Source: Bacteroides sp.
GTDB lineage: Bacteria > Bacteroidota > Bacteroidia > Bacteroidales > Muribaculaceae
Assembly: GCA_014802045.1 (NCBI GenBank)
Contig: JAAVDA010000012.1
Coordinates: 1 to 64,000 of the forward strand
Length of the DNA: 64,000 nt
Direction: 5' to 3'
The position numbers were made by a program, and so were the translations under genes. Positions 27,852 through 37,635 of this stretch are shown here, piece after piece. Below the pieces are notes generated by a model. The model searched no databases and was not told the DNA's origin. It worked only from the letters and a program-made list of their open reading frames with translations. The first letter of the stretch is position 1. Every line of letters starts with the position of its first letter.

Positions 27852-27894
27852 GGGGAAATTAGCAGTTTTTCGCCTCGGCATGGCTATAATTTTG
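27852..27894 (+). promoter_or_regulatory. Promoter P1 of phage-head-like unit 1: GGGGAAATTAGCAG (27852-27865) ... TAATTTTG (27887-27894)
   Basis: 14-bp motif identical to that at 31479-31492 and at nearly the same distance from a TAnnTTTG -7 element. Confidence 0.6.
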
Positions 27895-27926
27895 CAGTGT
27901 GAACACTAATCAACCAGAGTTTATTT

Positions 27927-28304
27927 ATGGAACAAGACCTGAATCAGCCAACCCCCGAAGCAACTTCCCTGCAGCCGGAAGGGACCCCTGCATCCCCTCA
28001 TACCGACTCAACCTCTCCCGAGCCAACCGCCCCAGCTTCTTCAACCGACAATCCACCCGCCTCCTCGCCTCAGAGGCTTTCGGAGGCTGATGCTCTCACC
28101 GCCTCACGCCTCATGGAGCTGCTTTCGCAAGCCGAGGAGCGAGGATATCGCCGCGCACGCCGAGAGATGCAACAATCCTCCTTGCCGGAAACACCCCTCT
28201 GGGGCAACCCAAGACGAGTGGAGAACGACGGCGCATCCGCTCGCGAGACTATGAAAATAGGCGATGATTTCCTGACCCGCATCCGGCCCGCAGTATGGGA
28301 CTAA
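27927..28304 (+). CDS. Small Pro/Ser/Thr-rich protein preceding the capsid-like gene; candidate scaffold-like protein
   Basis: Low-complexity N-terminus, charged C-terminal helix (RLMELLSQAEERGYRRARREMQQ), position directly upstream of the MCP-like gene. Confidence 0.4.
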   Translation: MEQDLNQPTPEATSLQPEGTPASPHTDSTSPEPTAPASSTDNPPASSPQRLSEADALTASRLMELLSQAEERGYRRARREMQQSSLPETPLWGNPRRVENDGASARETMKIGDDFLTRIRPAVWD

Positions 28305-28356
28305 GCCCCGCCCACCGATCAAACTTTTCACTAATCACCAAAAAAACTTACAGTAT

Positions 28357-29607
28357 ATGAACACACTCGTAGCAGGTCAGTCGGGCGGCCGACATGTGAC
28401 CGACGGCCCTCTCACCACCCCCGCCATACGCGAAACCTCACCCGAACTTCTGAGAAATGAAATCGATTCGCGAGTGGTGCGTATCCGCCCGATGGCTACT
28501 CCTGTAGACCAGATTTCGCGCATGATCGGAGCGCGCCACTCTTCGTCGATGGTGGTGGAATATTACTCGGTAGACACCAAGGCTCAGACGGTGAAGATAA
28601 CCGGTTCGCCCGAAATTCTCGATGAACTTCACCCCGACGGTTACAGGCTCTACACAATCAGTGTCGACTCAATAGGAGTGATAGCCCCTACAGACACTCT
28701 CCTCATAGTCGGTTCGTCGGGCACAAACGGCCCCGTGACTCTTTATGTGACAGACCGCACCGAGGCGCGCAACACTTTTCGCGTGATAGCTCTCAACGGT
28801 GCCGACGAGGATGGGGTGAAGGGCTGCATTGACACCGACCTCCGTGGACGCACTCTCGTGAGGATGGGCAGAGCTGCGGCAGAGCTTGATGTGCAGACTT
28901 CTCAGTTTGAGGCTCTTCCGCAAAAAGCTCAAAACTACTGTCAGATATTCAAGGCTCAGATCGAACAGGGCACCTTCACCCGCCTTGCAGCCAAAGAGGT
29001 GGGCTGGAGTTTCAGCGACCAGGAAGAGGTGGCCATCATGGATATGCGTCTCGGCATGGAGAAGAGTTTTCTCTTCGGGGTGCGGGCGCGCATTCAGGCT
29101 CCGGGAGCATCAGACGAAGTGCTCTTCACCGGCGGCATATGGCATCAGGCCGAAACAGATTTCTCCTATTCAGCGGCTGCCTTCGGCCAAGACACTCTGA
29201 TAGATCTCATGCGCCTTGCCTTTACAGGCGACCGTGCCGGTTCGCGGCGCAAGATTCTTCTGGCCGGTAGCGAGCTGATAGCCCGCCTGAATAAGCTCGA
29301 CTACACCCGTGTGGTTTCGGCCGGCGACACCGTTACCCGCTGGGGAATCGACTTCAACGAACTCCGCTCTAAGTTTGGCACTCTCTATGTGGTTCATTCC
29401 GAGGTGTTCGACCAGTGCGACCATGCCGACGACGGTTTCGTGATAGACCCCGAATATCTGGTTAAATACGTGCATCTTCCCTTCCGTGTGGAGCGTATAG
29501 ACCTCAAGAGCTCCGGGGTGCGCAACACCGAAGCCGTCGTGGCCACCGAGGCAAGCTGCATGGCGCTGCGCCATCCGAAGTCGCATGTGCGTGTGACTCT
29601 TGCCTGA
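28357..29607 (+). CDS. Phage major-capsid-like protein (SU10/DUF5309-like)
   Basis: Resembles Bacteroidota HK97-fold MCPs: QNYCQIFKAQIEQGTF, EKSFLFGVRARI, FTGGIWHQAETDF, RKILLAGSELIARL, KFGTLYVVHSEVFDQCDHADDGFVIDPEYLVKYVHLPFRVERIDLKSSGVRNTEAVVATEASCMALRHPKSHVRVTL. Confidence 0.65.
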   Translation: MNTLVAGQSGGRHVTDGPLTTPAIRETSPELLRNEIDSRVVRIRPMATPVDQISRMIGARHSSSMVVEYYSVDTKAQTVKITGSPEILDELHPDGYRLYTISVDSIGVIAPTDTLLIVGSSGTNGPVTLYVTDRTEARNTFRVIALNGADEDGVKGCIDTDLRGRTLVRMGRAAAELDVQTSQFEALPQKAQNYCQIFKAQIEQGTFTRLAAKEVGWSFSDQEEVAIMDMRLGMEKSFLFGVRARIQAPGASDEVLFTGGIWHQAETDFSYSAAAFGQDTLIDLMRLAFTGDRAGSRRKILLAGSELIARLNKLDYTRVVSAGDTVTRWGIDFNELRSKFGTLYVVHSEVFDQCDHADDGFVIDPEYLVKYVHLPFRVERIDLKSSGVRNTEAVVATEASCMALRHPKSHVRVTLA

Positions 29608-29622
29608 CTATCCTGACACCCC

Positions 29623-30183
29623 ATGCCGATGCCTGCTTTTTCCTACACCCTCTCTGAGTCAGAGCTCATAGCCCGACTCCGCCGGCTGCTGTTTATGGAG
29701 CCGGTAGATGAGTCCGTGAGCCGCACCGACTCTCCCGGTGCGCTCCGGCGCATGGAGCTCCAGGTGGCCGATGCCTATATCGACGGCCTCATCTCGCTCG
29801 ATCCGTCTGAATTGCCCCTCACAGATCTCACTCCGGAGGCAGTTCTCTCCAATCCTCTCCCCGGCCAGCCGGCCACACTCATTCTGCCCCCGCGATGTCT
29901 TCGTCCGGTGTCGGTCAGAATGGCCGGCTGGGGTAGGGATGCCACCATTGTTAAGGCCGGGACAGCAGTGGCTCTGGCTCAAGACAACCCGTTCAGCCGC
30001 GGAGGCACCGTCCGCCCTGTGGCCGTAGTGGAGCCGGCGGGAAAACTCACCCTCTACACTCCGCCGCGCAATCTCGCGCCCTCTCTCCTCGCTCTCCTTG
30101 CCATTGCTCTTCCGCCCGACGGACTCTATCCGCTCACCCAGCCCCTCGAACACCACATTCTCAGTCGGCTTGCCTCGCGATAG
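29623..30183 (+). CDS. Hypothetical protein in capsid-like operon; candidate connector/adaptor
   Basis: 16 bp after the MCP-like gene, same strand; no firm family recognised. Confidence 0.35.
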   Translation: MPMPAFSYTLSESELIARLRRLLFMEPVDESVSRTDSPGALRRMELQVADAYIDGLISLDPSELPLTDLTPEAVLSNPLPGQPATLILPPRCLRPVSVRMAGWGRDATIVKAGTAVALAQDNPFSRGGTVRPVAVVEPAGKLTLYTPPRNLAPSLLALLAIALPPDGLYPLTQPLEHHILSRLASR

Positions 30184-30207
30184 CCGGAGGAGCCCCCGGC
30201 TCTCTAC

Positions 30208-30243
30208 AGCCTATGCTGCCCTTTTTGGATAGCATAGGCTTTT
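30208..30243 (+). terminator. Terminator closing phage-head-like unit 1
   Basis: AGCCTATGCT / AGCATAGGCT perfect 10-bp stem followed by TTT. Confidence 0.7.
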
Positions 30244-30345
30244 GTGTTGCCTTGGCTAAAGAGAATTTAATATATAGGTCACTTGCGCTATTATTTTTTT
30301 TGCACTACTTTTGTGAAAATTAAAATTTTAGCGGAGTTGGAGAAA

Positions 30346-31449
30346 ATGAAAAATCGTAGAGCGATCACAAAAGCAATGATTGTGGGAGGGCTTGCCCTCC
30401 TGCTATCTTGTTCAGGAAATAAGGAAAAGCGTGCGGAGGGTGCTGCCCCTGTAGCCTCTATTCCTGTCGATACAGTTGAGCGGGAGATTCCACCCTGCAA
30501 GAGGCTGAAAATCTCAACTTCGGGCGCATTGCCTATAAAGTCGCTGCCTGTGGTTGAAACGATAGAGTTCCCGGACACGACAGAATATTTTATCGGAGTG
30601 CCGTCATGTGTGGAGGTGAGAGGTGACACCATCTTTGCCATAGACAGCAGTAAAGCTCCGGGCTTTTATGCCTATCGGCGTGATGGCTCCCAGATATTTG
30701 CCTACACCTCCACCGGTCAGGGTCCGGAGGATTTTATGGTACTTAGAAATCTGAATGTAACTGATACTGAGCTGAGCGCTTTTGATGACGGTCTGTGCGG
30801 TATTTTTATAATTGATAAGAATGGCGATTTTGTTCGCACGGTTAAGTGCCCGGTCTACTCGCTTGCGGCATCAATTTCAGACGCGGGTGATATGTGGGTT
30901 GATTTCAGTAATTTTGATGGCATGATGGATGATATCAAATTGGGCTGGGCTCCTCCCGGCGGCCGACCGGACTCTCTGGTTACTGTCCTCCCTATTCCCG
31001 AACATCTTAAAGGTATCTATGCGTCGGGTATTCGTCCTCTTGTTCGCATTTCTGCAAACGAATGGATTTTCACTCCCTCATTCGAACGATATGTCTACAC
31101 TTTGAAAGACGGTAAAGCTTATCCCCGATATGAACTTGATTTCGGCAACCTTTGGTGGGACGACGAGAAGATGTCGAAAATGGCTCACAGCAATGACTGG
31201 GCTGTCCAATTGCAGGATTTTCCGATTCAACCTATGTATATTCAGGAAAATGAGCGATGGTTTGTGGTTGGATTTGCTGTAAATAGGGATAAGAGATATG
31301 TGTATGTTTACGACAAATTGGGCGGTGATTCACGCACCTTTATAGATCATCCCAGAAAGTACCTCCATCCGATAGCCTTGGATTGCAACGATTTGTTTAT
31401 GAACTGTGTGGATAATTCCAATCTCGAAGTGCTCCGCCTTGCGGACTGA
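30346..31449 (+). CDS. 6-bladed beta-propeller lipoprotein
   Basis: Lipobox LALLLSCSG; VETIEFPDTTEYFIGVPSCVEVRGDTIFAID...GQGPEDFMVLRNLNV as in Bacteroidota 6-bladed beta-propeller proteins; ATG 30346 preferred over track start 30283. Confidence 0.75.
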   Translation: MKNRRAITKAMIVGGLALLLSCSGNKEKRAEGAAPVASIPVDTVEREIPPCKRLKISTSGALPIKSLPVVETIEFPDTTEYFIGVPSCVEVRGDTIFAIDSSKAPGFYAYRRDGSQIFAYTSTGQGPEDFMVLRNLNVTDTELSAFDDGLCGIFIIDKNGDFVRTVKCPVYSLAASISDAGDMWVDFSNFDGMMDDIKLGWAPPGGRPDSLVTVLPIPEHLKGIYASGIRPLVRISANEWIFTPSFERYVYTLKDGKAYPRYELDFGNLWWDDEKMSKMAHSNDWAVQLQDFPIQPMYIQENERWFVVGFAVNRDKRYVYVYDKLGGDSRTFIDHPRKYLHPIALDCNDLFMNCVDNSNLEVLRLAD

Positions 31450-31478
31450 GCGGAGTTCATCCGGTTTTGGGGGCGGAT

Positions 31479-31522
31479 GGGGAAATTAGCAGCCGGAAGA
31501 GGAGTGGAGGGGAGTATCTTTG
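31479..31522 (+). promoter_or_regulatory. Promoter P2 of phage-head-like unit 2: GGGGAAATTAGCAG (31479-31492) ... TATCTTTG (31515-31522)
   Basis: Perfect 14-bp match to P1 motif, spacing to -7 element 22 nt versus 21 nt in P1. Confidence 0.6.
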
Positions 31523-31536
31523 CATAAAAAACAGTT

Positions 31537-32220
31537 ATGCAATCATCACCCCTCGAAATCGCTCTCTCTGCCTGGCAATCAACCGCTCCGTTCCGCGCCA
31601 ACCGTCAGCGCTATAAGCGTTACACCTATGGACGGCAGTGGGACGATATAATCACCTCGCCCGATGGTGTGGCGCTCACCGAAGGTGCTTATGCCGAGAA
31701 ATGTGGTCATCGCCCGCTCACCAACAATCTTATCCGGCAGATGGTAAAGACTGTCATAGGCCTCTGGCGGCGCGACATGGCTCCCTCTCATGGTGGCACC
31801 GACACGGCAATAGCCCGACGCAACCATCTCGATGAGCTTGATGCTCGCACCCTCGAAGAGTTTCTCATATCGGGGTGTGCGGTGCAGAGGGTTGTGACCG
31901 AGAGGCGTATGGGTGGCACAGGTGTATGGGTAGACCTCGTGAGTCCGTCGCGATTTTTCTTTTCGCCTGCCACAGACCCGCGCGGTTGCGATATGGAGGT
32001 AGTCGGTATGGCCCACGATATGAGCATGCGCGAGGCGATGGTGAGGTTCGGGGGCGAGGATGGCTCACGGCGCAAAAGAGTGGAGCGCATCTATTCAGGA
32101 GTGGAGCCCCGGCTGTTTGCGTCGGTCGATATGCAGTCGGTGGCCGCATCTCTTCTTTCGGCACCGGCGGGAAGATGCCGCGCCATTGAGCTCTGGACGC
32201 TCGAAAGCCGGCTTATATGA
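31537..32220 (+). CDS. Phage portal-like protein, N-terminal part
   Basis: ALSAWQSTAPFRANRQRYKRYTYGRQWDDI...PLTNNLIRQMVKTVIGLWR...FLISGCAVQRVVTERR...VWVDLVSPSRFFF resembles Bacteroidota phage portal proteins. Confidence 0.6.
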   Translation: MQSSPLEIALSAWQSTAPFRANRQRYKRYTYGRQWDDIITSPDGVALTEGAYAEKCGHRPLTNNLIRQMVKTVIGLWRRDMAPSHGGTDTAIARRNHLDELDARTLEEFLISGCAVQRVVTERRMGGTGVWVDLVSPSRFFFSPATDPRGCDMEVVGMAHDMSMREAMVRFGGEDGSRRKRVERIYSGVEPRLFASVDMQSVAASLLSAPAGRCRAIELWTLESRLI

Positions 32221-32921
32221 TCCGCTGCTATGACCCGGTGGAGTGGGGAGGCTTCCTGCTTCCGGCGTCGGCCGCCCCCCGGATTGAGAAGGAAAACCGC
32301 GGGAGGGCCGAAGAGGCGCGCATTGCTTTCAGAGAATTCGACACCGTGAGATGGCACTGCCGCTGGCTCGCTCCCACAGGCGAACTGCTCGACAGCTACG
32401 ACTCCCCGTGGCCCCACGGAGGCCACCCATTTGCCGTGAAACTCTATCCGATGACCGACGGAGAGATTCATCCGTTTGTGGAAGATGTCATAGATCAGCA
32501 GCGCACCATAAACCGTCTCATCACTATGCTCGACACCATGCTCGGTGTCAGCGCCAAGGGAGCTCTGCTCTTTCCGCTGCGCGCACTCCCACCCGGATAT
32601 AGGCTTCCCGACATTGCGGCAGCGTGGAGCATTCCGGGAGCGGTGATTCCTTTTGACACTGCCGACACAAATCTCCGCCCCATGCAGGTGAGCGGTTCGT
32701 CAGGCGATTGCGGAGCAGCCTCCCTGCTATCTATGGAGATGAAGCTTTTCGAGCAGATTTCGGGTGTGAACGGTGCGATTCAGGGGCGTGAGGTAACGGC
32801 CAACACCTCGGCTGCGCTCTTTGATGCGCGCACCCGCAATGCCACCACCGCGCTCATCGATTTGCTCGAATCATTCGATTCGTTTGTAGAGGAAAGAAAT
32901 CGCCTCATTAAGCAATCTTAA
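32217..32921 (+). CDS. Phage portal-like protein, C-terminal part
   Basis: HPFAVKLYPMTDGEIHPFVEDVIDQQRTINRLITMLDTMLGVSAKGALLFP...LFEQISGVNGAIQGREVTANTSAALFDARTRNATTALIDLLESFDSFVEERN; starts at ATGA overlapping the stop of the preceding ORF. Confidence 0.6.
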   Translation: MIRCYDPVEWGGFLLPASAAPRIEKENRGRAEEARIAFREFDTVRWHCRWLAPTGELLDSYDSPWPHGGHPFAVKLYPMTDGEIHPFVEDVIDQQRTINRLITMLDTMLGVSAKGALLFPLRALPPGYRLPDIAAAWSIPGAVIPFDTADTNLRPMQVSGSSGDCGAASLLSMEMKLFEQISGVNGAIQGREVTANTSAALFDARTRNATTALIDLLESFDSFVEERNRLIKQS

Positions 32922-32991
32922 CTGTGATGGTATTGCATTTTGCCCATGCAGGGTTGTAAATTTGCCAACAGAATGCCAACTTTTATTTTTT

Positions 32992-33558
32992 ATGACTATG
33001 CAACATCCATCTTCCTGCAATCTCGCCACTCTGCGCGACCGCGATTTTCTCGCAGCCTGCCGCAGGGTGCTCGCCGGCCAGCGGCGCACAGACCTCACGG
33101 CAGCCGAGGTTGCGCGCATGGCGGCCAACTCTCCCGCTCCATCCTACTATCTCACCTATGAATATGCCCGACGTATGCTGAGCGAACGGCGCAGGGGCAT
33201 GATCACATCGCGCAACACTCTGGGTTCAGACCCCTCGCAATCTCCGCATCACTCCGGTAGCCCGATCGAGCGGCGCCGTGAGGAGATAGCCGGAAAAGTG
33301 AAGACCCTCATGGAGCGCACACCCGGATTGAAGATGGGCGCCGCTCTCAGCCGGGTGCTTGCCGGGCCGGCATCATCATTCTTTCTCGCTCCCGACACTG
33401 CCCGGAAGCTTTTTGCCACACTTCGACGTGGCAGCGCGGCTCGCCGCCATTCTCAAAGCGTGGCGCCTCATCTTTCCGCCCGGCCCCTGCGCAGCCACAC
33501 ACCGCTCCGCCGCCCCCTTCTGCCCAATTCGGCTGCCGGCCAGCTCATTCTCCGATAG
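32992..33558 (+). CDS. Hypothetical protein with internally duplicated helical module
   Basis: AANSPAPSYYLTYEYARRMLSERRRG and LAGPASSFFLAPDTARKLFATLRRG are clear internal paralogues; ATG 32992 chosen over 32962. Confidence 0.55.
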   Translation: MTMQHPSSCNLATLRDRDFLAACRRVLAGQRRTDLTAAEVARMAANSPAPSYYLTYEYARRMLSERRRGMITSRNTLGSDPSQSPHHSGSPIERRREEIAGKVKTLMERTPGLKMGAALSRVLAGPASSFFLAPDTARKLFATLRRGSAARRHSQSVAPHLSARPLRSHTPLRRPLLPNSAAGQLILR

Positions 33559-33600
33559 GTTGCTGTCTATCCGTCATTTATCACTCATCTCTAATATCTA

Positions 33601-34035
33601 ATGTTTACCATATCCCTTTCGCTCAGTGCTATCTGCGCTGAAATCCTTGCCGAATCGGCTCTGCGTCATCATCTGCAGCCCTCCACCCCCGCTCCGCTCA
33701 CATCCGACTCCACCGATGCGCTCCGCACTCTTATAACGGCCGCATTTGCCTCTATCTGCACAGATCTCGGGCCGCTGGCGGTGAGTGCCGACATATCATC
33801 AGACGGCGAGCTACTTCAGCTCACCATAGACGGCAACCCGCAGTCGGCTCAACAGTTGCGGCTTGCAATCGAACACCTCTTAGCCCTCAGGGTGATGACC
33901 CGCGCCTATGCATCGGCCGACAGCTCTCTGGCAGCCTCCCTCTCTTCGAGCGCAGCCTCCCTTCTGCGCTCGCTTGCAGCCACTATCTCATCTTCCGCTC
34001 CCGACATTCCGGTTATCACTCCGCGCTTCTACTGA
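33601..34035 (+). CDS. Hypothetical protein, last gene of phage-head-like unit 2
   Basis: ORF in series after the duplicated-module gene; no firm family recognised. Confidence 0.45.
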   Translation: MFTISLSLSAICAEILAESALRHHLQPSTPAPLTSDSTDALRTLITAAFASICTDLGPLAVSADISSDGELLQLTIDGNPQSAQQLRLAIEHLLALRVMTRAYASADSSLAASLSSSAASLLRSLAATISSSAPDIPVITPRFY

Positions 34036-35419: not shown

Positions 35420-36580
35420 TTAGAAAAGGAATGGGCAATCTTCTTTGAGTCGTTCGAACATAGCCTTATAGCCTTCAACAGTGGGGTGAATTCCGTCTGG
35501 TAAGATAAATCCATTTTTCCATTTGGAAGGATTCTCTGGGTTTATAATAGCCTTATTAATATCAATATATAGTTCTCCACTATTCTTAATCCACTCATTT
35601 ATCTCACTCGGAGAGGGAGAGTCTGCTATTTCATATCGGGGAGTTACTGTTACTAGTATGGGCTTGATTCCTTTAGTTTTTAGCAAATCTATAGCCTGTC
35701 TCATATAAATCTTATATTCATCAACTCTCGAATAATTATTAGTTCCCATACTAATAATAGTATATTCTGGTGAGAACCATGAACACTCTAGTTCTAATCT
35801 TTTAAACCATTGGTCACATACGACTTCTCCACCACGACCATCTATAATGCAATTATTAGGTGTTATCGCTTCGGCTAATTGAGCACACCATCTACTATTA
35901 ATAGGGTATCCATATTGAATAGAAGCCATTCCCTCTATAAATGAATCACCTATGACCATTACTTTTGCGTTTTCTTTATAATCAGAACTCAATACAGATT
36001 TATAGACAGTAACAGAGCCAGATTCAATAGTAAAAAATGGATTTCCAGACAATCGATTTTGCATAAAATCCTCATCAATGTCATACCATCGTTCAAAATC
36101 AAGGTTTTCTCCTTTTAAGAAGAATTTGACTCCGTAAAGGGTCTTATGAAAACCAATTTTATATCGAATTCCTTTTGCCAAAGGAGTGATTAGGTTTATG
36201 CACTCATTTAACTTAATTCCGTTGGAAGAATGAAATTTGTAAAGGTTTATTGTTGCTCCTTCTATTCTTATGAAACCATCAGTCTTTCCAGCTTCAATTA
36301 TCAGTGGTTCATCAGTTGCTGGTTCAAATTCAGTTGTAAATGATAAGTCCTGCAAAAACACATCATGTTCAAATAAAATCGAGTTCTTATCATTCAATTC
36401 GTGAGAGGAAAGTTTACAAGGATTTATAGGGACAGAATCATAATGATGAGAAAATATAATATAATCGGATATTATATTAGTCATATCTGATTCATCGTCT
36501 GAACAAGACACGAAAAAAATAGACGCAAAAAATGTTAAAACGATGCGTATATGCGTCATTAATTGGTACGTCTTATTCAT
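35420..36580 (-). CDS. SGNH/GDSL hydrolase-family lipoprotein
   Basis: FFVSCSDDES lipobox; VMVIGDSFIEG (GDS), IISMGTNNYS, DGIHPTVEGYKAM catalytic blocks. Confidence 0.85.
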   Translation of the reverse strand: MNKTYQLMTHIRIVLTFFASIFFVSCSDDESDMTNIISDYIIFSHHYDSVPINPCKLSSHELNDKNSILFEHDVFLQDLSFTTEFEPATDEPLIIEAGKTDGFIRIEGATINLYKFHSSNGIKLNECINLITPLAKGIRYKIGFHKTLYGVKFFLKGENLDFERWYDIDEDFMQNRLSGNPFFTIESGSVTVYKSVLSSDYKENAKVMVIGDSFIEGMASIQYGYPINSRWCAQLAEAITPNNCIIDGRGGEVVCDQWFKRLELECSWFSPEYTIISMGTNNYSRVDEYKIYMRQAIDLLKTKGIKPILVTVTPRYEIADSPSPSEINEWIKNSGELYIDINKAIINPENPSKWKNGFILPDGIHPTVEGYKAMFERLKEDCPFLF

Positions 36581-36627
36581 TTTATTAATTTTGTATAGTT
36601 TTATGCAAAGATAATAAAATAAATAAC

Positions 36628-37635
36628 ATGATACTAGTTAAACGAGATTGTTCCTTAGATTTTGTTAAAGGATTTGCGGCATTGGCTGTGGTTCTGTTGC
36701 ATAACATGCCAAATTACTACATCGGTTCAGTGTTATGGATAGGACAAGCTGTCCCTTTATTCTTATTTGTTAGTGCATATCTTACATATGGGAGTTTTGA
36801 GCGAGGTAAAACGATTGAATCTTATTTCTCAAAAAGCTCAATGGTGAAAATGATGAAAAGGATTTTTAAGCCTTTTCTAATGATGACAATTATACAAGTT
36901 GTTATTATACAAATAATTAGCTGGGGGGGGGTAAATGATGAGGGAATAGTTGCCTTGAGTTTTTTGGTTGATGGGAGAATAAATTATAAAGGACTAATAG
37001 TATCAGGAGGAATTGGGCCTGGATCATATTATCCATGGCTATATCTGCAAGCATGGGTATTTCTACCCGTGATTGCTATTGTAACGACACGGTTTTCTGC
37101 AAAAACATCATGCACTATTTTTTTGGTGACATGTATTATATTGGAACTCATTAGCTCACTGGTTAATGTTAATCCTGCAATCTACAGACTTTCTTTTTAC
37201 CGATATTTGTTTTTGTTGTATTTGGGATGTATAGTAAAAAGGAATAGTATAAGTTTATCTAAAGGTGTAGTATTTTTAGCAGGTATTAGTGCCATCTTTC
37301 TTATTCTAAGTAATTACTCTGATATCGATTTTAGACCATTCTTCTTTAATCAATGGAAAGGCCATAATTGGTTGGGTTATTTCTATACCGTTTTTTTCTT
37401 TCTTCTGCTTAAAAAAATTTATTATAAGTATAATGACAAAACCATAGTTAAATGGTTGACTGATTTGGGTCCAATGTCATATGAGATTTTTTTATGTCAA
37501 ATGTTCGTTTATAGCTTTATCTCACTTAATTTATTTCAGTCTATAAAGAATGAGATTCTGCAATATAGTGCGTTTGTAATTACTACGACAATTCTTTCTC
37601 TTGTCCCAGTTATTATATATAAGAGGTGTCGGTAG
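36628..37635 (+). CDS. Membrane acyltransferase (acyltransferase 3 family), contains a G9 tract
   Basis: LDFVKGFAALAVVLLHNMP motif, multiple TM segments; AT-rich gene. Confidence 0.85.
   Translation: MILVKRDCSLDFVKGFAALAVVLLHNMPNYYIGSVLWIGQAVPLFLFVSAYLTYGSFERGKTIESYFSKSSMVKMMKRIFKPFLMMTIIQVVIIQIISWGGVNDEGIVALSFLVDGRINYKGLIVSGGIGPGSYYPWLYLQAWVFLPVIAIVTTRFSAKTSCTIFLVTCIILELISSLVNVNPAIYRLSFYRYLFLLYLGCIVKRNSISLSKGVVFLAGISAIFLILSNYSDIDFRPFFFNQWKGHNWLGYFYTVFFFLLLKKIYYKYNDKTIVKWLTDLGPMSYEIFLCQMFVYSFISLNLFQSIKNEILQYSAFVITTTILSLVPVIIYKRCR

Follow-up and report, generated by a model that had tools for sequence, protein, structure and literature searches.

Scattered, inherited phage-derived genes for a putative DNA-packaging particle in the gut-bacterial family Muribaculaceae

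Gene transfer agents (GTAs) are phage-derived particles kept by their hosts, and among the closest described cases to the genes analyzed here is that of the FpGTA I/II of Faecalibacterium, a Gram-positive gut bacterium of the Ruminococcaceae (PMC12946183). Those GTAs are podovirus-like, comprise head, portal and terminase genes split over two distant operons, are present in all Faecalibacterium genomes examined in that study, and their particles were observed. One of their operons holds terL with the head genes and the second holds tail fiber and lysis genes. The RcGTA and other alphaproteobacterial GTAs are vertically inherited, with streamlined head, packaging and tail genes under purifying selection (PMC9953437). 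They are siphovirus-like, are mostly encoded in one cluster, and have MCP and portal families different from those found here. PBSX of Bacillus subtilis is a domesticated phage particle that packages host DNA (PMC12946183). It is a single defective prophage with lysis genes, found in one species group. Encapsulins also are HK97-type shell proteins kept by the host, but they have no portal, scaffold, terminase or tail, all of which have counterparts in the system described here, the tail in the form of a predicted nozzle. The closest free phages are the Bacteroides phages BF1-TP2, BS-TP4 and BKO1-TP3, with 36 to 37% identity in the MCP, about 33% in the portal for BF1-TP2, and 40 to 48% in TerL, and with homologues of the gene at the scaffold position, the adaptor, sm1 and the nozzle. 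They have complete, clustered genomes of 64 to 68 kb with a full-length portal (622 aa in BF1-TP2), a rhomboid gene, a giant tail-region gene, an endolysin gene and replication genes, and their portal and terL genes lie on the other side of the MCP gene.

We analyzed a 64,000-nucleotide stretch of a Muribaculaceae genome (Bacteroides sp., GCA_014802045.1, contig JAAVDA010000012.1, positions 1 to 64,000; hereafter the window). A preliminary description, made from the sequence alone, had reported in it a compact phage-head-like gene set on the + strand, with the MCP gene before the portal gene, between birA and a U32 peptidase gene, and without recognizable integrase, terminase, tail or lysis genes. 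This observation was confirmed, as were the gene order, the flanks birA (−) and U32 (+), and the absence of these gene types from the interval (Table 1). Three points required correction. First, the ORFs do not all form one module, because an unrelated lipoprotein gene has inserted between the adaptor and portal genes. Second, the two portal pieces form one continuous ORF in about 25 orthologues, and only this genome is frameshifted, at about 32214-32220. Third, the small protein sm1, previously regarded as unknown, is a homologue of a phage protein whose gene sits beside terL in related phages.

Table 1 Features of the head-gene locus in the window and the evidence supporting each of them
Positions	Strand	Feature	Evidence
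27852..27894	+	Promoter-type element GGGGAAATTAGCAG-N21-TAATTTTG upstream of the head operon	Pattern RAATTAGCAGN{15,26}TANNTTTG: 12 sites in the own genome vs 0 for the reversed control; also precedes portal, three terL copies and the nozzle gene
27927..28304	+	Scaffold-like protein, 125 aa (about 260-280 aa in the phage relatives)	Orthologues at the same position in 24 further loci, with which it aligns; role inferred from position
28357..29607	+	Major capsid protein (MCP), SU10/DUF5309 type; HK97 fold inferred from the family	Pfam SU10_MCP (PF17236) E=3.7e-51; profile hits the solved MCP of phage VP1, 9in6, E=4e-10; dN/dS 0.03-0.11
29623..30183	+	Probable head-tail adaptor (connector), 186 aa	Orthologues in 25+ loci; the same family's HMM hits phage BF1-TP2 gp54, directly downstream of the MCP region; role inferred from position, no PDB profile hit
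30283..31449	+	Not part of the system: inserted DUF5128 6-bladed beta-propeller lipoprotein gene	PF17170 E=1.1e-17; absent between adaptor and portal in all relatives
31479..31522	+	Second copy of the promoter-type element, upstream of portal after the operon was split by the insertion	Nearly all relatives have no promoter here
31537..32220	+	Portal protein, N-terminal piece	phrog_156 E=4.2e-11; profile positions 1-223
32217..32921	+	Portal protein, C-terminal piece; frameshift relative to the single ORF of the orthologues	P22_portal E=4.1e-10; phrog_156 E=2.3e-19
32908..32923	+	TTAAGCAATCTTAACT: degenerate copy of a TTAACA-N4-TTAACA direct repeat at a near-fixed distance upstream of the sm1 promoter in most species	Mean match 9.95 vs 7.34 in shuffles for 20 sm1 promoters; scaffold promoters 7.32 vs 7.27
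32962..33558	+	sm1: small helical protein with two similar halves, homologue of phage gp58; candidate small terminase or regulator	phrog_27246 E=9e-9; same family beside terL in phages; AF2 model of an orthologue pLDDT 95, no PDB match
33601..34035	+	sm2: conserved 130-150 aa protein, no phage homologue found	23 orthologues in the module loci; dN/dS 0.21-0.28

We next asked whether packaging and tail genes are present elsewhere in the same genomes. A large terminase, TerL, and a predicted podovirus-type tail nozzle are near-universal in the genus and the family, usually encoded as one nozzle-terL locus far from the head genes. TerL resembles T4 gp17 over both the ATPase and the nuclease, although Pfam gives no family for it. 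Its Walker A motif KARQWGGST, catalytic E, ESTANG motif and nuclease D/E/DD residues are invariant or more than 90% conserved, showing that the motifs, from which activity can only be inferred, are intact. The nozzle is a 650- to 935-aa ORF directly upstream of terL in 20 loci, and it was found in 15 of 15 genomes tested. Its profile hits gp26 of phage BS-TP4 at E=2.6e-10. In a Foldseek search with an AF2 model of the protein (pLDDT 87), the top 16 PDB fold hits were all podovirus-type tail complexes (P22 gp10, Sf6 gp8, SU10, crAss001 muzzle, Pam1) with a probability of 1.00, albeit with low TM-scores (0.24 to 0.35 of the query, up to 0.47 of the target). PDB profile searches with the adaptor, sm1, sm2 and the nozzle returned nothing useful, and because the sm1 fold search also gave no match, its candidate role as a small terminase rests on position only. 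No fiber or receptor-binding gene and no regulator gene was identified, and no lysis gene was found at the loci or beside the shared promoter elements. A BLAST-level search of the loci yielded no further phage genes, and an Rfam search returned nothing in the window or in four of the motif-bearing loci.

The genes are widely distributed. In the genus, a GTA-type MCP copy is present in about 28 of 34 genomes (prophage-type only in genomes G002 and G032) and 31 of 34 genomes match TerL. In the family, an MCP match was obtained in 270 of 299 genomes (roughly 240 of them strong), representing 29 of 30 genera, and a TerL match in 111 of 120 genomes, also representing 29 of 30 genera. Some genomes have lost parts of the system, such as G018, which lacks MCP and portal but keeps the nozzle and TerL. 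The genes lie hundreds of kb apart: in genome G007 the head genes are at 224-227 kb and nozzle-terL at 1018-1023 kb on one contig; in G064 the head genes are at 603-608 kb, the nozzle at 831 kb and terL at 1560 kb; and in G219 the nozzle is at 0.93, the portal at 1.36 and the MCP at 1.89 Mb. Thus, they cannot be packaged as one genome. No integrase or replication module was recognized at the loci in the BLAST-level search. In the window genome, the portal frameshift and the fact that terL runs off contig ends indicate that this copy may be impaired or misassembled.

The dN/dS values range from 0.03 to 0.28, indicating purifying selection, and MCP, portal, TerL and nozzle distances correlate with each other and with a host gene. 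Mantel correlations were 0.59 for MCP-TerL, 0.75 for MCP-nozzle, 0.60 for MCP and the host gene U32, and 0.65 for TerL-U32 (each P=2e-4). The head and nozzle/terL promoters share species-specific elements (P=0.0004 for scaffold versus nozzle/terL; P=0.61 for the sm1 control). In two genomes, G005 and G006, one of them the type strain Paramuribaculum intestinale DSM 100749, the element occurs exactly twice, only at those two loci. It is not exclusive everywhere, however. In G008 it is a 16-copy repeat, with 14 copies lying elsewhere, many beside housekeeping genes, and in G000, 6 of 12 copies sit in noncoding repeats. The idea of a dedicated regulon in every species was therefore rejected.

We propose, with fair confidence, that the window carries the head operon of a multilocus, GTA-like system of Muribaculaceae derived from a podovirus related to phages BF1-TP2 and BS-TP4. 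In this model, the scaffold and the SU10-type MCP would form a procapsid on a C-terminally shortened portal, and TerL, perhaps helped by sm1 as a small terminase, would pump DNA in until the head is full. The adaptor and the nozzle would then close the head and form a short tail for delivery. Because the genes are scattered over two to four chromosomal loci, carry no recognized replication or integration genes nearby and cannot be packaged as one genome, the packaged DNA should be host DNA, and the particle should be unable to propagate itself. The homologies, the nozzle-like predicted fold, the conservation of the TerL catalytic motifs, the family-wide distribution, the purifying selection, the congruence of gene distances across loci, the shared promoter elements and the absence of a complete prophage all come from the analysis itself. 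In contrast, the activity of TerL, the formation of particles, the packaging of host DNA in them, their exit from the cell and the transfer of DNA are inferred, without expression, particle or transfer data. The interpretation given in the preliminary description, namely a maintained nanocompartment, GTA-like or antiphage structure rather than a dying prophage, is thus partly supported. Domestication is supported by the orthologues across the family, purifying selection and congruence with a host gene, and the GTA-like option is strengthened by the conservation of packaging (TerL) and tail (nozzle) genes elsewhere in the same genomes, whereas a stand-alone capsid module without such genes and the nanocompartment option are not supported. 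A full prophage at this locus in relatives, combined with relaxed selection here, had been named beforehand as a finding that would overturn this interpretation; we looked for it and did not find it.

Compared with FpGTA I/II, the phylum differs, terL sits with the nozzle apart from the head genes, and up to about four loci are used. In the literature searched, no GTA is named for Bacteroidota, and to our knowledge this one would be the first in that phylum. It appears more likely than not that it represents a near-universal, podovirus-like GTA of an entire gut-bacterial family, coordinated by lineage-specific promoter elements that evolve together across loci, and a major route of gene flow in Muribaculaceae. 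As this family is dominant in the mouse and ruminant gut, a GTA carried by nearly all its members would be a constitutive route of gene exchange in a main model microbiome. The scattered layout explains how such a system could escape prophage finders, and it suggests that others may be found by looking for co-inherited capsid, terminase and nozzle genes rather than clusters. A cultured type strain carries the intact genes, which makes the proposal directly testable.

Among the alternatives, an unlikely but not excluded one is a PBSX-like killing particle that packages random host DNA without delivering it and serves as a bacteriocin against related strains. The nozzle evolves fastest (median identity, 23%), as expected of a part in an arms race, receipt of DNA cannot be shown from sequence, and PBSX packages host DNA without injection (PMC12946183). 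However, the head, portal and TerL are kept under strong purifying selection or strong conservation, which a tail-only killing role does not require, and no contractile tail or lytic domain was seen. It is less likely that the particles deliver something other than random host DNA, for example preferentially a mobile element, as a helper for satellites. Many assemblies break at terL, and terL appears multicopy in the window genome, so the system is linked to repeats, but no satellite-type locus with the shared promoter element was found in G005 or G006.

A protein nanocompartment, or a capsid that poisons incoming phage assembly, is similarly improbable. The head module is compact and conserved and would alone suffice for such a role, but the conserved portal, TerL with intact ATPase and nuclease motifs, and a nozzle whose distances correlate with those of the MCP argue against it, as does the lack of a cargo-type gene in the operon. 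A scan of nine proteins against PADLOC gave only one weak hit, of the nozzle, at E=0.021. Lastly, decaying or recurrently acquired prophages are equally improbable: although true prophages with related MCPs exist in the family and order (loci L060 and L062-L064) and the window portal is frameshifted, such prophages are clustered, whereas the module genes are scattered, usually single copy, under purifying selection and congruent with a host gene, and the module MCPs are 44 to 93% identical to each other (median, 56%) but only about 35 to 41% identical to phage and most viral-contig MCPs.

The arrangement birA-[module]-U32 is not a fixed site. birA lies within about 10 kb in about half of the genus loci and U32 in about 8, and in other genera the head genes sit elsewhere or are split.

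The ORFs lie where the preliminary description had placed them, and its observation of a phage-head-like gene module between birA and a U32 peptidase gene held. The major capsid protein (MCP) and the two parts of the portal were identified by their families. In contrast, the ORF before the MCP (scaffold position), the 186-aa protein after it (adaptor position) and the two small proteins have no Pfam family, but all have orthologues in the same order in other genomes. Two details had been missed. A lipoprotein gene has inserted between adaptor and portal only in this genome, and portal is one ORF in about 25 relatives, so that the split observed here is a frameshift or a sequence error. The portal frameshift means that the window strain itself may not make functional particles.

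Coordinates of the features in the window, in the rest of its genome (G000, contigs denoted C) and in other genomes (denoted G) or loci (denoted L)
Location	Position	Feature	Evidence or remark
Window	28357-29607	MCP, SU10 type	PF17236, E=3.7e-51
Window	30283-31449	Inserted lipoprotein gene	DUF5128
Window	31537-32220	Portal, P22 type, first part	
Window	32217-32921	Portal, P22 type, second part	
Window	35420-37635	Low-GC patch next to U32	32-41% GC
G000	C9:73781-74842	terL	At a contig end
G000	C8:68073-68228	Near-identical 5' part of terL	At a contig end
G000	C10:1-156	Near-identical 5' part of terL	At a contig end
G000	C10:13166-15094	Nozzle	
G000	C5:86842; C7:411; C17:63722; C20:188; C28:64624; C32:52	Six copies of a non-coding repeat	Loci L192, L193, L200-L203
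G000	L075:6816-7982	Propeller lipoprotein gene beside the terL locus	DUF5128
G008	L208-L223	Sixteen copies of a promoter element	43 nt
G219	0.93, 1.36 and 1.89 Mb	Nozzle, portal and MCP, respectively	Another genus; single 3.34-Mb contig
G524	C1:2759035-2776627	TerL, full-length portal and nozzle	Other Bacteroidales family
G325	C13:134513-154398	TerL, full-length portal and nozzle	Other Bacteroidales family

The window belongs to a 2.22-Mb draft genome (76% complete) of the genus Paramuribaculum, judging from its closest MCP relatives. About 28 of 34 genomes of the genus carry a module-type MCP. In the family, 270 of 299 genomes and 29 of 30 genera gave a match, of which by our reading about 240 are strong module-type matches, about 24 are weak, mostly in one genus, and a few are prophage-type. 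As most genomes are drafts and some are incomplete, absences carry little weight. The complete module is found in Paramuribaculum intestinale DSM 100749. Free phages and true prophages carry MCPs that are only about 35-41% identical, with a gap below the module type. The few viral contigs at 49-54% are three short contigs that hold only the module genes, plus one 27-kb contig of phage-like order.

We next looked for the genes missing from the module. In the related phages BF1-TP2 and BS-TP4, the gene order is portal, terL, rhomboid, gp58, scaffold, MCP, adaptor. A search with the phage TerL identified a homologue in 31 of 34 genomes of the genus, nearly always single and at a locus apart from the head genes; only in G036, a genome of another genus, do the two lie within about 10 kb. 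Family-wide, TerL was found in 111 of 120 genomes. It is a T4 gp17-type motor with a nuclease domain, and its catalytic motifs are invariant or over 90% conserved. Directly upstream of terL in 20 loci lies a protein of 650-935 aa. Its profile finds phage BS-TP4 gp26 (E=2.6e-10), and its AF2 model (pLDDT 87) matches podovirus-type tail complexes as its first 16 PDB hits. We call it the tail nozzle, with the caution that the TM-scores are low. All 15 genomes tested have it. No fibre, lysis or regulator gene was found.

In the window's own genome, three loci share the first ~110 codons and the promoter of terL (96-97% identical) with different upstream flanks, and the contigs break there. Several relatives also break in terL, and some (G097, G424) hold two full copies; terL may be multicopy or recombining. 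In G219 the nozzle, portal and MCP genes all lie apart, and 29 of 80 named family loci show only the MCP of the module within 8 kb. G018, a 98% complete genome, lacks MCP and portal but has TerL and an apparently frame-broken nozzle, an example of loss in progress.

Three lines of evidence tie the loci together. First, pairwise protein distances correlate across loci and with the host gene U32 (MCP-TerL r=0.59, MCP-nozzle 0.75, MCP-U32 0.60, TerL-U32 0.65; P=2e-4 each). Second, within a genome the scaffold promoter resembles the nozzle/terL promoter more than those of other genomes (P=0.0004, 12 genomes), while the promoter of sm1, the small protein homologous to phage gp58, used as a control, does not (P=0.61). 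In two genomes, G005 and G006, the promoter element occurs exactly twice in the genome, at these two operons. In the window genome it precedes scaffold, portal, three terL copies and nozzle, and its presence before portal after the operon was split by the insertion is telling. However, the element is not exclusive in G000, where six copies of a non-coding repeat (GGAAACGCACCACA...GTTGGTAGGACGGACTCG) carry the same element, with no Rfam match in the four loci scanned. Neither is it exclusive in G008, in which an element (GTGGGCAACTTTTAGCGTATAGGCCAAATTCGCAGATT) occurs upstream of the head and nozzle operons but also beside carB-, pnp-, clpB- and glyS-like genes, as a copied promoter cassette. 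Third, all module genes are under purifying selection, with dN/dS of 0.03-0.28 in the closest pairs, although dS is high and these values are approximate.

In the most likely mechanism, scaffold and MCP would assemble on the shortened portal, TerL would fill the head with DNA, and adaptor and nozzle would complete a short-tailed particle. As sm1 sits beside terL in phages, it may be the small terminase; its model is a well-predicted helical protein of two similar halves without a known relative. The sm1 gene has its own promoter with a conserved TTAACA-N4-TTAACA repeat at a near-fixed distance, a motif that was chosen after inspection of the data. With genes hundreds of kilobases apart, the particle could only carry host DNA fragments. 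The homologies, the distribution and the links between the loci come from the sequence analyses, whereas packaging, release and transfer are inferred.

The nearest analogue is FpGTA of Faecalibacterium (PMC12946183), which is podovirus-like and split over two operons. The present system is in another phylum, differs in layout, is more scattered and spans a family. The GTA families listed by ICTV (PMC9953437) include no Bacteroidota, and our literature searches, which did not cover preprints or most subscription journals, found no report in Muribaculaceae. Outside the family, TerL of this type also occurs in some other Bacteroidales families, in every sampled genome of several such genera. In the two genomes checked, G524 and G325, terL, portal and nozzle are clustered within about 20 kb and portal is full length. 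This arrangement may represent the less streamlined ancestor state, possibly an ancestral GTA, or conserved prophages.

In the window genome, both the head module and the terL locus have a DUF5128 propeller lipoprotein gene next door. The low-GC patch next to U32 contains an SGNH-type hydrolase-like and an acyltransferase-like gene and was probably acquired horizontally.
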